Assembly: GCA_021161465.1 (NCBI GenBank)
Contig: JAGHAM010000003.1
Coordinates: 5,677-69,676, forward strand
From: Candidatus Iainarchaeum sp.
Lineage (GTDB): Archaea > B1Sed10-29 > WALL01 > JAGHAM01
DNA: 64,000 bases
Direction: 5' to 3'
The notes beneath the pieces are model-generated. The model saw only the letters and a program-made list of their open reading frames with translations, made no database searches and was not told the DNA's origin. Shown here piece after piece: positions 16,356 through 26,392 of this stretch. Position 1 is the first letter of the stretch. Every line of letters begins with the position of its first letter. The translations under genes were made by a program, and so were the position numbers.

Positions 16356-16400
16356 GTTGCAAAAACTGTTGTTTGGTTTCCTAACTAATTTATTTAAGTT

Positions 16401-16447
16401 ACGTTAGATAATCAAACAAAAACTTATATAAATAAGTTTGACGTTAG
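16401..16447 (+). promoter_or_regulatory. inverted and direct repeats upstream of nrdJ
   Basis: A perfect 8-base inverted repeat AAACTTAT (16420-16427) / ATAAGTTT (16432-16439) with a 4-base spacer encloses a TATA-like core. It is flanked by two copies of ACGTTAG at 16401-16407 and 16441-16447, exactly 40 bases apart. The array is about 90 bases before the nrdJ start. It looks like a promoter with operator sites; no NrdR-box or B12-box resemblance is seen. Confidence 0.45.
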
Positions 16448-16526
16448 TTAAAGCACAATTTATCATTAGAAAATCAAAGTATTATTGCATAGAAGGGTTA
16501 AAAAGTAAACTTTTAGGGGGATTTAG

Positions 16527-18620
16527 ATGGTTATTGAGAAGGTAAAGAAGAGAGACGGACGTGTTGCTGATTTTGAGAAAGTAAGGATAACTAATGCAAT
16601 CTTCGCAGCGGCTGAGGCAGTTGGGGGCAAGGATTACAAAGAAGCTGAACGCCTGGCAGATGTTGTTACGGACTTACTAAGCAAGAAATTTAGGAGAACT
16701 ATACCAACCGTTGAACAGATACAGGATGTAGTGGAGAAGGTCTTAATAGAGGAGGGCCACGCTAGGACAGCTAAGGCCTATATCCTGTACAGGCAGAAGA
16801 GAAAAATACTTAGAGAACTCAAAGCAGAGCTTCTTGACAAACCTGTTGATGATGTTGACCGTAAGTTGTCAGTTAATGCTTTGAAGGTTTTAGAGAGAAG
16901 ATATTTGAAGAGAGACAGGAATGGAAAGGTAGTTGAAACACCAAAACAAATGTTTAGAAGGGTGGCTCATGCAGTCGCCCTTGCAGATACTTTCTACAAT
17001 GGGGGCATGAAGGATACCGAAAAAGAATTTTATGAGATGATGACTAAGTTGGACTTTGTTCCGAACTCACCGACTCTGATGAATGCTGGAACAGAGCTTG
17101 GTCAGCTTTCTGCATGTTTTGTGCTTCCTGTTGAGGATTCAATGGAAGGGATATTTGAAACCCTCAAACACACAGCCTTGATACATCAATCAGGCGGTGG
17201 AACGGGCTTCAGCTTCTCGAGACTCAGGCCTTATGGCGATGTTGTAAAAAGTTCAGGCGGCATAGCCTCTGGTCCAGTTTCATTCATGAAAGTGTTTGAC
17301 GCTGCCACAGACGTTATCAATCAGGGAGGCAAGAGAAGAGGAGCAAATATGGGAATACTCCGGGTGGACCACCCAGATATAGTGGATTTTATCACAGCGA
17401 AAGAGGATACAACGCAACTAACCAACTTTAACATATCCGTTGCAGTCACGAACGAGTTCATGGAGGCCTCGCTTAAGAACAAAAACTATAAGCTGGTAAA
17501 CCCCCACTCGAAGAAAGTTGTTAAGGAGTTACCTGCGAGAAAAATCTTTGACTTGATAATCACGATGGCGTGGAAGAATGGGGAACCAGGAATAATATTC
17601 CTAGACAAGATAAATAAGGATAACCCAACTCCATCTATCGGTGAGATAGAGAGCACAAACCCGTGTGGCGAACAGCCATTGCTACCCTATGAGTCGTGTA
17701 ACTTAGGTTCTGTAAATCTTGGCAACATGGTGGAGGATGGTAAGATAAATTGGAAAAAACTGAAGGATACTGTCTGGAAAGCTGTTCATTTCCTTGATAA
17801 TGTCATAGATGTAAACAATTTCCCCCTGCCGCAGATAGAGCAGATGACTAAGGGTAATAGGAAAATTGGCCTTGGCATAATGGGGTTTGCCGATATGCTG
17901 ATTGCGTTGGGCATACCCTATAACTCAGAGCAGGGTTTGGAGACAGCCAGGAAGGTTATGAAATTTGTTCAAACAGAGGGCAGGAAAGCCTCGCGACAGT
18001 TGGCCAAGGAAAGAGGGCCTTTCCCGAATTGCAGTAAGAGCGTGTACAAGAAGAACCCAATTAGGAATGCTACCGTTACAACTATAGCTCCAACTGGAAC
18101 TATAAGTCTAATAGCAGGCGCGTCCAGTGGTATAGAGCCGTTATTTGCCATATCTTTCATAAGGAACGTGATGGACAACACAGAGCTGCTTGAGGTGCAT
18201 CCTCTGTTTGAGAAGATAGCCAGGGATAGGGGTTTTTACTCACCTGCTTTGATGAAGAAAATAGCCCGTGTTGGCTCCATACAAAATCTGAAGGAAATCC
18301 CAAGAGACGTTAGGAGGATATTCGTAACAGCTTTGGATATATCACCAGAGTGGCATGTTAAGATGCAGGCAGCGTTCCAGGAGTACACAGACAATGCTGT
18401 ATCGAAGACCATCAACTTTCCAACTGATGCAACACCTAAGGATGTCGAGAAGGCATATATCCTTGCATATAAGCTTGCCTGCAAGGGTATAACAGTGTAC
18501 AGGTATGGTAGCAGGAAAGGACAGGTCCTTAATATAGGCAAGGTTGAGAGGGATGGGGATGTCACAGTAGACGCTGACTTTTCAGGCAAGTTGGGGGAGT
18601 GCACGAACTGCAACACTTAG
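16527..18620 (+). CDS. nrdJ: adenosylcobalamin-dependent (class II) ribonucleotide reductase
   Basis: 697 residues, ATG preceded by GGGGG. An N-terminal ATP-cone (about 5-95) is followed by the ten-stranded reductase barrel. Cys197 (LSACF) and Cys391 (ESCNLGS) form the substrate-reducing pair, and Asn378-Pro-Cys380-Gly-Glu382 holds the thiyl-radical cysteine and glutamate. The C-terminus ends CTNCNT, a minimal redox CxxC; the long zinc-type Cys tail of many NrdJ proteins is missing. Reduces ribonucleotides to deoxyribonucleotides using B12 rather than oxygen or a glycyl radical. Followed by overlapping B12-supply genes. No intein. Confidence 0.95.
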   Translation: MVIEKVKKRDGRVADFEKVRITNAIFAAAEAVGGKDYKEAERLADVVTDLLSKKFRRTIPTVEQIQDVVEKVLIEEGHARTAKAYILYRQKRKILRELKAELLDKPVDDVDRKLSVNALKVLERRYLKRDRNGKVVETPKQMFRRVAHAVALADTFYNGGMKDTEKEFYEMMTKLDFVPNSPTLMNAGTELGQLSACFVLPVEDSMEGIFETLKHTALIHQSGGGTGFSFSRLRPYGDVVKSSGGIASGPVSFMKVFDAATDVINQGGKRRGANMGILRVDHPDIVDFITAKEDTTQLTNFNISVAVTNEFMEASLKNKNYKLVNPHSKKVVKELPARKIFDLIITMAWKNGEPGIIFLDKINKDNPTPSIGEIESTNPCGEQPLLPYESCNLGSVNLGNMVEDGKINWKKLKDTVWKAVHFLDNVIDVNNFPLPQIEQMTKGNRKIGLGIMGFADMLIALGIPYNSEQGLETARKVMKFVQTEGRKASRQLAKERGPFPNCSKSVYKKNPIRNATVTTIAPTGTISLIAGASSGIEPLFAISFIRNVMDNTELLEVHPLFEKIARDRGFYSPALMKKIARVGSIQNLKEIPRDVRRIFVTALDISPEWHVKMQAAFQEYTDNAVSKTINFPTDATPKDVEKAYILAYKLACKGITVYRYGSRKGQVLNIGKVERDGDVTVDADFSGKLGECTNCNT

Positions 18621-22695: not shown

Positions 22696-23664
22696 TTAAA
22701 ACCCCAATAGCAGCAGGACAGCGCCTATGCTTAAGCCAAACACAAGATTGAATGCCTTGATTAAAAGGGAGTCGTTAAGTGTGTATGAAAAGAGAGGTAA
22801 CATGCCATGCCCGTCCTGGACGATTGAGCTCGTCAGTAAAACTGAGAAGGGTATCAAGCCGCTTGCAAACATGGTGACAAATGCCATGTGTGGCCCTGAT
22901 TCTGGAATCAACCCAACCAACGCGCTTATGACGAGAACCAGCCAAATGTTTGCCCTGATAGTTTGGCTGAAGTTCCAGTATTGAAGGCCAAACCCAACAA
23001 AAATCAATGCAAACAAGGTCCAGAGGAATACTCTCCATATGTGCTTCTTAATGATGTGGTTCAGTATGTGCTCTTCCAGATAATGCTCCGAAGCAGTTGC
23101 AGTCATAACTATTGCAATAGTTGACAGGGACAATAAGATGATTCTATCAGGCTCGTCCCAGCTCTGTGGCCCCCAGGCACCAATGAGGTTCAATGCAATG
23201 ATTGCAACAAAGGCGAGAACTAGCGCATACCTTGCAGGTGATAACTTTGGGAACTCCAGCAGGACAGATGGCTTGAAAGGATTTCTCCCCTTGACTTTGT
23301 GCATCTTTTGTAGTCTGCACTCCTTGCATGGTGAGATTTTGAGGAAATTTGCTAGTTTGTCAGCTAACCAGGCACCGATGATACCTAAACCAAACAAGAT
23401 TGCAAATAGCATCAATGCTTCCTTTGGGAACATAGCTAGCATGACAAAGGACTCATCGCCTGAGGTAGCAATCATCCCTCCAACTATGGCACCAAATGTT
23501 ATGAGACCATGAACATAGAGGGATACATTCATAAATGCCCCCAAACAACCAGGAGTGGCACCCAGGAACGAGGCTATGGAATATTGTCGCAGTTTACCTC
23601 CCCGTATGGCTTTCTCAAGTTTGCCCCTTGTGACAACATCAAAATAATCGATGAGGAGCATCAT
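22696..23664 (-). CDS. putative 10-TM heavy-metal/manganese exporter (ArsP_2, DUF2899), main reading frame
   Basis: 322 residues, about nine hydrophobic helices. FLGATPGCLGAF, GMIATSGDESFVMLAMFP and the C-terminal LIPESGPHMAFV and SSIVQDGHG are signatures of the ArsP_2/DUF2899 putative exporter family; a cysteine pair CKECRLQK sits in the central cytoplasmic loop. The first TM helix is incomplete if translation starts at 23664. The missing N-terminus is encoded upstream in another frame (23717-23779), so a one-base insertion or two-base deletion near 23716-23725 is likely. Substrate is unproven for the family. Confidence 0.75.
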   Translation of the reverse strand: MMLLIDYFDVVTRGKLEKAIRGGKLRQYSIASFLGATPGCLGAFMNVSLYVHGLITFGAIVGGMIATSGDESFVMLAMFPKEALMLFAILFGLGIIGAWLADKLANFLKISPCKECRLQKMHKVKGRNPFKPSVLLEFPKLSPARYALVLAFVAIIALNLIGAWGPQSWDEPDRIILLSLSTIAIVMTATASEHYLEEHILNHIIKKHIWRVFLWTLFALIFVGFGLQYWNFSQTIRANIWLVLVISALVGLIPESGPHMAFVTMFASGLIPFSVLLTSSIVQDGHGMLPLFSYTLNDSLLIKAFNLVFGLSIGAVLLLLGF

Positions 23665-23913: not shown

Positions 23914-25881
23914 CTATCTAGCTTTCAAAGTGAAGGCTACAAGGTCCTCCTTTTCCAGAAGGTCATATATGGTGTCTATTGGCTTTTCCCATTCAGGAAG
24001 AATGAGCTTGGCCGCGCCGTTGCAGTATTGCTGCAGTTTTATCTCAGTGTCAATCCATTTTTCAGTGTCTGGGTAGTTGTGGGTGAAACCATTTGCTGGA
24101 TAAACCTCCTTAACTCCAAATCTGCTCTCATTCATCTTCCTGAACCTCTCTGATGCCCGCCTTGCCTCTAGACAACCAAACAACAGGAATACATCACCGG
24201 CCTCATTGAAGCTTTCAAGTTTCCTGTTTACGTAGGCTAACACTTTGTCTGCAAAAGCGAACGCGTCTGGGCTCTTGTTTATCTCTCTACCAGTGTACTC
24301 CTTGACGGCGTTGTCCAGCCCTATGACATTGACAACAGTTGGCGCGTTTTCAAGCGAGTAATACTCCTCCGCGCCAAAGCTTTGTGTCAGGAAGGAGAGT
24401 ATCTTATCCTTGTGGAGCCTTGTTTCGATTATTTTCTTCTTGGTTTCATGTGTTTTCCTGCCAGCCTCAAGGGCAGTATCCAGCTGGTTGAAGAATTGTG
24501 GGTCTTCTTTGCTAGTCATTGCTATCTTTGGAAGGTTTATTGAAATCTCCTGCAGAACACCACTCCTTATTGTAGTGAACCATTTTTTGTCTTTTCCCGG
24601 CATCAGCTGGTTCGGGAAAATCATATTAAGATTCTGTCCAAACCTTTTGTTCCTCAAATTCAGGAACGTCAGGTCGTTCTTCTGTAGGAATCTTTTTATT
24701 GGCTCTTCAAGTGCGTGGGGTATTGGGCCATCCCTAATTTTTAGAACAACCCGTGGTATATGGAAAGGCTTGCCATGCATGTCCCCCTCAGCCATCACTT
24801 CCAGGAACAAGCTTAAGAACCGTATGCTCTCCCTTTCATAGTCATAATATGTATCCTGTCCTGTTATGCCTTTTGGCAGTATTGCTTTTTCTTTTTTAAG
24901 GAAAGCCGGCGTTTCAAGCTCAAAGTTTAGGGTAGGCCTGGCAAGGACGCCTTTTGCAGCATATATCTGGTTAAGCTCGTAAAGGAATGTCTGCATGATT
25001 TGTTTCACGCCGGCTTCATCCTCGTTTATGATATATGGTGAGAGAAAGCTGTTGAAGAAGTCGAATCCCTGGCCACCCGATAGATGGGTTTCACCGGTGA
25101 TTAAAACGCGCAATGCGTGGCTCATCGCTACACCGGGCTTCTTTGCTGGTTTGGATGCTATGCTTACCTCACGGTTTCCATCAGGGACAAAACCATTCTT
25201 AAGGAACCACCGCATGTCATTCTGCAGGCTGGTTGGCCTTGTTGCAAAGCAGGATAAATCATGTATGTGGATGAGTCCAACTAAATGATATTTTGAGACT
25301 TCCTGGGGGAGAAGTTTAACCAGCGCGTACTCTTCAGCTATTGAGTCACCAAACTTCTGGTGAAGCACTTCAGGGTTTGATGGATTCTCCCTTATCACTC
25401 TAGCAACATCATATATCGGTAAGCCCAAACGTGTATACTCTTTCTTTGCCTGCATGTATTTTCGCTCTAACAGCTTTGAGTTCACCATCTCTCTTATCAA
25501 TGGAGCTGAGATATGCCTGAGTTCAAGTCTCCGTATATCAGACTCAACTTCACCAGCTATCTCCTCGCAAACACTTTTTGCCAATGTTGTTTCCCTTAAC
25601 AGGCTCTCAACAATTTTCTCCTTGCTGAAGGATGTCAAAATTCCCTCAGATGTTCTAACGTAAACCCGGTGGTAGTTCTCAAACTTGTTTGCAGATTCCT
25701 CATCCCTTTCTCTTAGCTTCTGTATTATAAGGTCGTTTATTTCCTCTTCTGACATAGCTGGGGTAACTTGGTCTTGTAGGCCAAGCGCCACCTCGGTTGC
25801 GAGCCAGAAACTCACGCCGGCCTTGGTGCACTTGTCCTGAATCACTTTTGGGTTGAACTTTTGAGCAGGAGTAGAAGCCAT
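23914..25881 (-). CDS. NrdD-like protein with tandem ATP-cones, lacking catalytic residues
   Basis: 655 residues. Two ATP-cone-like modules (about 8-72 and 73-155) precede a barrel clearly homologous to archaeal class III ribonucleotide reductase (HIHDLSCFATRP at 204-216, AKKPGVAMSHALRVL, SGGQGFDFFNSFLSPY, GDMHGKPFHIPR, SINLPKIA). The expected cysteine after TRP is Ser218 (TRPTSLQ); the cysteine cluster expected in the 408-428 region is absent (FGQNLNMIFPNQLMP); and the protein ends at LVAFTLKAR just where the zinc Cys pairs and glycyl-radical loop should begin. No activase gene is nearby. Probably not an active reductase; a dNTP/ATP-sensing role is inferred. Starts leaderless from the TATA shared with the Lrp gene. 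Confidence 0.8.
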   Translation of the reverse strand: MASTPAQKFNPKVIQDKCTKAGVSFWLATEVALGLQDQVTPAMSEEEINDLIIQKLRERDEESANKFENYHRVYVRTSEGILTSFSKEKIVESLLRETTLAKSVCEEIAGEVESDIRRLELRHISAPLIREMVNSKLLERKYMQAKKEYTRLGLPIYDVARVIRENPSNPEVLHQKFGDSIAEEYALVKLLPQEVSKYHLVGLIHIHDLSCFATRPTSLQNDMRWFLKNGFVPDGNREVSIASKPAKKPGVAMSHALRVLITGETHLSGGQGFDFFNSFLSPYIINEDEAGVKQIMQTFLYELNQIYAAKGVLARPTLNFELETPAFLKKEKAILPKGITGQDTYYDYERESIRFLSLFLEVMAEGDMHGKPFHIPRVVLKIRDGPIPHALEEPIKRFLQKNDLTFLNLRNKRFGQNLNMIFPNQLMPGKDKKWFTTIRSGVLQEISINLPKIAMTSKEDPQFFNQLDTALEAGRKTHETKKKIIETRLHKDKILSFLTQSFGAEEYYSLENAPTVVNVIGLDNAVKEYTGREINKSPDAFAFADKVLAYVNRKLESFNEAGDVFLLFGCLEARRASERFRKMNESRFGVKEVYPANGFTHNYPDTEKWIDTEIKLQQYCNGAAKLILPEWEKPIDTIYDLLEKEDLVAFTLKAR

Positions 25882-25902: not shown

Positions 25903-25911
25903 GTTTATAAT
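25903..25911. promoter_or_regulatory. symmetric TATA element shared by NrdD-like and Lrp genes
   Basis: GTTTATAAT at 25903-25911 is about 26 bases before the minus-strand ATG at 25881 and about 29 bases before the plus-strand ATG at 25940, so one AT-rich element could position both divergent promoters. Both messages would be leaderless. Confidence 0.45.
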
Positions 25912-25939
25912 CATAACAGCAAGAGCCTCTCTGGTTCGG

Positions 25940-26392
25940 ATGTTTAACCGTGGTTTCATGGAACTAGATGAAATAGATTTGAAGATACTTGACCTGCTTT
26001 CAAAGAATTCAAGGATGTCATACTCAGACCTAGCTAGGCATTTCGGCTTTTCGGATGTTGCCATAAGAAAGAGGATAGACAAGCTGGTCGAGAGTAAGGT
26101 CATAAAGCGGTTCACGACCGAGGTAGACCACAAGAAGCTCGGGAAAAATGTGTCTGCATTTATCTTCTTTAAAACGCGCTCTGATAAGACTCAGGAGATA
26201 GCACAGCAACTCCTGCAGCTGGATGGAATCAGCGAAGTATTTATATCCCTTGGGGTTTACGATATAATTGCAAGAGCGTATTGCGGGGATGTTGCCGAGC
26301 TGAAAGACCTTACAGAACGAAAGCTGAACGAAATTAATGGCATTCTTGAAGTCAGGCCTTCGATAGTATTCAGCGAGTTGAGGGGTGCTTAG
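25940..26392 (+). CDS. Lrp/AsnC family transcriptional regulator
   Basis: 150 residues. An N-terminal helix-turn-helix (LDEIDLKILDLLSKNSRMSY, then IRKRIDKLVESKVIKRF) is followed by an RAM/AsnC ligand domain with VSAFIFFKT, GISEVFISLGVYDIIARAY and late ELRG. A later ATG at 25958 is also possible. Divergent from the NrdD-like gene and co-linear with UPF0201, whose GTG overlaps its stop by one base. Likely autoregulatory through the shared promoter; effector unknown. Confidence 0.88.
   Translation: MFNRGFMELDEIDLKILDLLSKNSRMSYSDLARHFGFSDVAIRKRIDKLVESKVIKRFTTEVDHKKLGKNVSAFIFFKTRSDKTQEIAQQLLQLDGISEVFISLGVYDIIARAYCGDVAELKDLTERKLNEINGILEVRPSIVFSELRGA

Follow-up and report, generated by a model that had tools for sequence, protein, structure and literature searches.

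A catalytically dead class III ribonucleotide reductase homologue and its divergent Lrp/AsnC neighbor: a proposed control module for archaeal ribonucleotide reductase genes

The pseudo-nrdD locus and the elements that it has lost

The window analyzed here is a stretch of 64,000 nucleotides, numbered from its first letter, from genome G000 (976 kb, 93% complete). Its minus strand carries pseudo-nrdD, which encodes a homologue of the class III ribonucleotide reductase (RNR) NrdD, with the following features.

23914..25881, minus strand (25881->23914): pseudo-nrdD, class III RNR homologue, 655 aa (ORF, Pfam, alignment, and structural match)
25903..25911, minus strand: TATA-like element of pseudo-nrdD, about 26 bp before the ATG (sequence)
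25672..25860, minus strand: remnant of a first ATP-cone, residues 8-70, helical part only (alignment and model)
25438..25671, minus strand: second ATP-cone, residues 71-148, complete and the most conserved region of the clade (Pfam and conservation)
25228..25230, minus strand: codon of Ser218, at the position of the catalytic Cys171 of P. copri NrdD (alignment)
24580..24651, minus strand: former radical-Cys loop, residues 411-434, Cys-free (alignment)

Residues 167-623 matched the Pfam NRDD model (PF13597, 2.6e-58), with the match ending at profile position 470 of 562, and residues 74-148 matched the ATP-cone model (PF03477, 8.9e-10). Against TIGR02487, the NCBI equivalog model of NrdD, the protein scored 197, below the cut-off of 326. 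The AlphaFold2 model (pLDDT 87.7) found its best structural match in P. copri NrdD (8p2s_A, Z 36.1, 2.2 Å over 452 residues), and membership of the NrdD barrel fold is met by this match and by that to PF13597. The structural match stopped at residue 675, one residue short of the glycyl-radical domain (GRD), which comprises residues 676-739 of P. copri NrdD (PMC11226230). A first-pass annotation, made from the letters of the window alone, had described an NrdD homologue without catalytic cysteines whose chain ends before the zinc/glycyl-radical region, and the second part of that description agrees with the structural match.

The first part was borne out by an alignment with six canonical archaeal NrdDs and ten members of the window's order, in which the roles of the catalytic and structural elements were taken from the P. 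copri NrdD structure (PMC11226230). The first catalytic Cys is replaced by Ser218, and all 10 order members aligned carry Ser. The loop that bears Cys416 at its tip in the P. copri enzyme is rewritten and Cys-free, with Pro423 aligned to the canonical Cys, and the four Zn cysteines, the Gly, and the entire GRD are missing from all aligned order members. The losses go beyond those annotated earlier: the NxN substrate flap is deleted as well, and the PAES triphosphate loop and the GxNE motif are altered. What pseudo-NrdD shares with class III RNR (NrdD; PF13597, TIGR02487) is the 10-stranded barrel, an ATP-cone, HxHD (205-208), and the active-site Asn (N449), and DxRxF and the interface helix (Q294, Q297, F299) are also kept, whereas equivalents of Cys171 and Cys416, the NxN flap, the Zn ribbon, and the GRD are absent. 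All four tests of an active class III RNR were failed (first Cys, loop-tip Cys, Zn ribbon plus GRD in cis or in trans, and NxN flap). Thus, the protein is a relative of NrdD that lacks the features by which the active enzyme is defined, and, judged by its alignment, it is a catalytically dead class III RNR homologue. The only models that such proteins hit are those of NrdD and the ATP-cone, and automated annotation could take them for reductases.

Orthologues were found in 11 of 11 genomes of the order and in 17 of the 19 genomes of the class, and they carry identical losses, so a local error does not account for them. Identity to the nearest-genus orthologue was 72%, versus 67% for the neighboring Elp3 and 65% for ThrRS. 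By this comparison, pseudo-nrdD is conserved at the level of a housekeeping gene and is not decaying, which upholds the earlier view of it as a pseudo-enzyme, its catalytic losses being clade-wide and the protein nevertheless conserved. Just downstream lies a gene for an ArsP_2-type putative heavy-metal exporter (22696-23664, minus strand), which was not seen at this place in relatives.

Of the two ATP-cone-like modules annotated earlier, the second is complete, and the test for ATP-cone proteins, at least one cone, is met by it. The first proved degenerate: it begins past the usual V-x-K-x-D-G hairpin, and in the alignment and the AlphaFold2 model the beta-hairpin roof is gone and the module is all-helical. 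We therefore infer that nucleotide binding of the kind found in normal cones has probably been lost here. The second cone is the best-conserved region between the order and other class members (0.52, versus 0.42 within canonical NrdDs), while the C-terminal part is the worst conserved (0.16 to 0.19, versus about 0.50 in canonical NrdDs). On these values, constraint has shifted away from the catalytic half and toward the second ATP-cone. The barrel is barely recognizable in the most distant clade members, but even there the cone and linker retain an invariant set of residues: V75, S78, F85, I90, S93, E97, T98, I108, R130, N134, L137, Y149, R151, G153, P155, and D158.

RNR components in the genomes that carry pseudo-NrdD

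The only RNR found in G000 is encoded within the window and is a putative target of the regulation proposed below.

16527..18620, plus strand: nrdJ, class II RNR with an ATP-cone (profile matches)

No other NRDD match was found in G000 (93% complete). The same genome, with the same limit of completeness, yielded no separate GRD, a possibility that the first-pass annotation had left room for, and the domain was also undetected in G003, G011, and G014. Across genomes, pseudo-NrdD co-occurs with NrdJ alone (G000, G003, G008, G011, G014, and G018), with canonical NrdD alone, or with both; therefore, it is not the reductase of the cell and has no single RNR partner. NrdJ was rejected as the sole partner, since a match to it was present in only 8 of the 19 class genomes. 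NrdR (TIGR00244) had no match above the cut-off in these 19 genomes.

An intact NrdG2-like protein is encoded directly downstream of pseudo-nrdD in G003 and G006 and is also present in G000. Genes for a ComEB-like dCMP deaminase, an NrdG2-like radical SAM protein, and a 2'-5' RNA ligase-like protein are clustered at L111 (3740-5659, contig C30 of G000) and L038 (9934-12166); this cluster directly follows pseudo-nrdD in G004 and occupies a separate contig in G000. NrdG2-like proteins without the radical-SAM Cys triad were seen at L035 (15167-15757), L033 (14326-14886), L073 (G010), and L069 (G016). In G005 and G007 the triad-less genes lie in one cluster with the dead NrdD, and the orthologues in G002, G003, G004, G006, and G000 keep the triad. 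The NrdG2-like protein was rejected as an obligate partner: no close copy was found in several class genomes with pseudo-NrdD, and in two order genomes it is cysteine-less.

Separately, we observed split class III RNRs in which the GRD is a small ORF directly downstream of nrdD (about 47 to 107 aa, longer where fused) and the Zn site apparently spans two chains. These occur in the window's class (L050, L045, L051, L044, L047, L043, L042, and L067) and in other archaea (L100, L103, L029, and L031), with the separate GRD fused to a thioredoxin-like domain at L029 and L031.

The Lrp/AsnC neighbor and the palindromic sites

Divergent from pseudo-nrdD lies a gene for a putative regulator, and palindromic sites were located in the promoter between the two genes and upstream of nrdJ.

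25940..26392, plus strand: Lrp/AsnC-family regulator, divergent from pseudo-nrdD (Pfam and orthologues)
25933..25949, no strand: putative operator GGTTCGGATGTTTAACC in the divergent Lrp/pseudo-nrdD promoter, core 25934-25948 (motif search)
16371..16385, no strand: putative nrdJ operator 1, 17.5 bits, the best site of the window (weight matrix)
16403..16417: putative nrdJ operator 2, 14.2 bits, 32 bp from operator 1 and a few bases upstream of the TATA box (about 16424-16435)
16465..16479: putative nrdJ operator 3, 11.6 bits, 62 bp from operator 2, in the leader

The neighbor met the test for an Lrp/AsnC protein, with matches to HTH_AsnC (PF13404, 3.6e-13) and to the ligand-binding domain (PF01037, 2.8e-11). 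Its true start is probably 25958, because the orthologues begin at the second Met (MELDEID). An Lrp gene is divergent from the gene for a Cys-less NrdD in every order member with upstream sequence and in five further class members, and the same pairing was found beyond the class in G019, G041, G037, G058, G040, G122, G325, G084, G065, G241, G103, G340, G173, G207, G289, G224, G255, G305, and G157. The paired Lrps of these archaeal families form one coherent Lrp/AsnC subfamily. Counting only rows with a known upstream flank, a divergent Lrp accompanied 31 of 36 Cys-less or GRD-less NrdDs versus 2 of 17 canonical ones (Fisher 2.6e-7, uncorrected for relatedness). A comparison of Lrp presence and catalytic loss by independent pairs had no power, with three pairs possible on the tree. 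Pseudo-NrdDs without an Lrp neighbor were present in the genus of G050 (L097-L099), in G112 (L138), in G111 (L141), and in G130 (L133), and active-looking NrdDs stood beside an Lrp in G258 and G100; therefore, an Lrp neighbor and the loss of catalysis do not strictly go together. The GRD-less NrdDs of the G050 genus retain the first Cys (RPYC).

The NrdD of G258 has all catalytic parts and an Lrp neighbor, and it branches just outside 13 Lrp-paired dead NrdDs and beside the active, Lrp-less NrdD of G330. Because of these features and this position in the tree, it looks as if the Lrp was acquired first and catalysis was lost later. A single origin of all Lrp-paired pseudo-NrdDs was rejected by the AU test (p 0.0004), a result that is soft given the long branches.

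The operator consensus is a 15-bp palindrome, GTTMGGAWTCCKAAC, and the counterpart in the Lrp/pseudo-nrdD promoter of G005 is GGTTCGGAAAGCGAACC. Sites were scored with a 15-bp symmetric weight matrix from which the tested genome was left out (leave-one-genome-out). With the model trained on other genomes, sites in the nrdJ promoter ranked first and second in the 64-kb window. The three nrdJ sites lie at -156, -124, and -62, and in eight sister genomes canonical nrdD is preceded by arrays of sites, in most of them at about -153, -122, and -60. Thus, the promoters of the working RNR carry helically phased operator pairs (31/63 bp): one operator precedes the TATA box by a few bases, and another falls within the leader. 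Phased pairs reaching 10 bits appeared in 0 of 60 simulated windows, and among relatives' loci, about 150 kb in all, they were found only upstream of nrdD and of the NrdG2-like operon. The site in the divergent promoter of the window is weak (9.6 bits, eighth of the window). In other archaeal families that bear the pair, the order-trained matrix found sites in nrdD promoters (Fisher 5e-11) and in Lrp/pseudo-nrdD promoters (2e-13), the p values being against composition shuffles, with related genomes treated as independent; at 18 nrdD promoters of archaea without the pair, the same matrix showed no enrichment (combined p 0.16).

Simpler searches were less telling. The GGTT-N9-AACC pattern alone was as frequent in the window as expected by chance, and a stricter consensus run over whole genomes was no clearer than the reversed control in several of them. 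The case for the operator is therefore built on the weight matrix, the spacing, and the promoter tests. Looking in other families for near-perfect 15-bp palindromes yielded no useful information, and the intergenic DNA is AT-rich, a caveat for the operator as a whole. There are no binding data, and the operator is assigned to the Lrp only via its location in the Lrp's own promoter and its co-occurrence with the pair across lineages. The arrangement resembles that of the archaeal Lrp/AsnC proteins Ptr2, LrpA, and Ss-LrpB, which likewise combine HTH_AsnC with a ligand-binding domain and have phased palindrome clusters, one of them upstream of TATA.

A dead NrdD is also found fused to a DNA-binding domain. 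In G014 and in 57 of 61 genomes of another archaeal family, a single chain combines a winged HTH (ArsR-type), an ATP-cone, a degenerate NrdD barrel, and a Zn ribbon. The gene (L108, L109, L176-L195) adjoins nrdJ, directly upstream and on the same strand in the loci of the other family that were checked and on the opposite strand in G014. The fused protein thus offers, by domain content and gene position, an independent case in which a dead ATP-cone NrdD is connected with both DNA binding and an RNR gene, as is proposed for the Lrp-paired form; in contrast to the latter, the fused form (L108/L109) is one chain with an ArsR-type HTH and one cone, and it keeps the Zn ribbon. We regard the HTH-fused proteins as a candidate archaeal RNR regulator family of their own. 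The AlphaFold2 model of the fused protein (pLDDT 68) was too poor for claims about its fold.

A proposed control module and the competing readings

Our preferred reading, which we hold with moderate confidence, is that the dead class III RNR and its divergent Lrp form a control module for RNR gene expression; nucleotide binding, contact with the Lrp, and binding of the Lrp to DNA are all inferred. The Lrp would bind the palindromes: at the site upstream of TATA it would act as an activator, and it would repress once higher oligomers fill the leader site too. Pseudo-NrdD would bind ATP or dATP via the second ATP-cone, and perhaps also a dNTP at the s-site of the dimer interface. Once loaded with nucleotide, it may alter its shape or oligomer state and so change Lrp assembly on the DNA, and RNR transcription would thereby track the dNTP/ATP ratio. 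The first-pass annotation had suggested a dNTP sensor working with the Lrp or with NrdJ, and this is supported as far as sequence can go by the constraint on the second cone, the Lrp pairing, and the common operator.

The job of the module would be that of NrdR, which in most bacteria is loaded with ATP/dATP and binds paired boxes about three helix turns apart at RNR promoters (PMC9110341). We propose that the module works like NrdR without being NrdR. Both have an ATP-cone and involve RNR promoters with paired palindromes about three helix turns apart (PMC9110341), whereas NrdR joins its cone to a Zn ribbon and is absent from the class, and here a dead RNR barrel bears the cone, a separate Lrp is the putative DNA binder, and the operator is a different one. 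The literature that we searched, which left out most subscription journals, contained no report of an inactive NrdD clade, of its pairing with an Lrp, or of this operator, and none of an Lrp that regulates RNR genes or is paired with an RNR-like sensor; nor did we find in it an answer to how RNR expression is adjusted to dNTP pools in archaea that lack NrdR. The module offers a concrete candidate set of regulator, sensor, operator, and target promoters, for whose test in vitro two proteins and short DNA would suffice. If true, it would clearly exemplify an enzyme that gave up catalysis and was put to new use as the sensor that governs its own pathway; the active, Lrp-paired NrdD of G258 would be a living intermediate, and another lineage has a fused version.

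The main rival reading is that pseudo-NrdD makes no contact with the Lrp and is merely a further target of an RNR-regulating Lrp, acting at the protein level as a regulatory or decoy subunit of NrdJ or NrdD or as a dNTP buffer. It accommodates the operator that the pseudo-nrdD promoter has in common with nrdJ and nrdD, as well as the kept interface helices, NrdDs being dimeric, and the active NrdDs beside an Lrp (L119 and L155) would fit an Lrp that started as a plain nrdD regulator. However, no single partner RNR suits a protein that occurs with NrdJ alone or with NrdD alone, the Lrp neighbor is retained despite very deep divergence of the barrel, and elsewhere an HTH is fused to the dead NrdD, and we consider this reading improbable, though worth keeping in play.

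We give rather less credence to the idea that the palindromes belong to a different, unidentified regulator of RNR genes and that the Lrp/pseudo-NrdD pair does something unrelated. The absence of binding data and the weak site at the pair in the window leave room for it, but the type, spacing, and position of the sites fit archaeal Lrp practice, and the motif tracks the pair across families and is absent at the nrdD of archaea without it.

That pseudo-NrdD is still an enzyme, performing ribonucleotide reduction or some new chemistry with a radical received in trans from a separate glycyl-radical peptide or from the NrdG2-like radical SAM protein, whose gene often lies downstream, seems very unlikely. 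Separate glycyl-radical ORFs do adjoin canonical nrdD in sister genomes, and the intact NrdG2-like protein downstream in G003 and G006 and present in G000 could be read in the same way. Against this, both catalytic cysteines and the substrate flap are lost, no GRD is detectable in G000, G003, G011, and G014, the radical SAM partner lacks its Cys triad in G005 and G007, and no close NrdG2-like copy was found in G011, G014, G017, and G018, which bear pseudo-NrdD. A decaying pseudogene or an assembly error, which the missing domain and catalytic residues might suggest, is refuted by the orthologues, given the intact frame, the same losses across the class (17/19), and the housekeeping-level conservation.

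Beyond the control module proposed for the window's class, the Lrp-paired and winged-HTH-fused forms raise the broader possibility that archaea repeatedly made class III RNRs into dead, nucleotide-sensing co-regulators that control RNR genes in place of NrdR, a generalization that we see as evenly poised. The herpesvirus R1-like proteins without RNR activity, which are likewise RNR large-subunit pseudoenzymes in a new role, differ from pseudo-NrdD in that they are class I and viral and act in host cell-death signaling.
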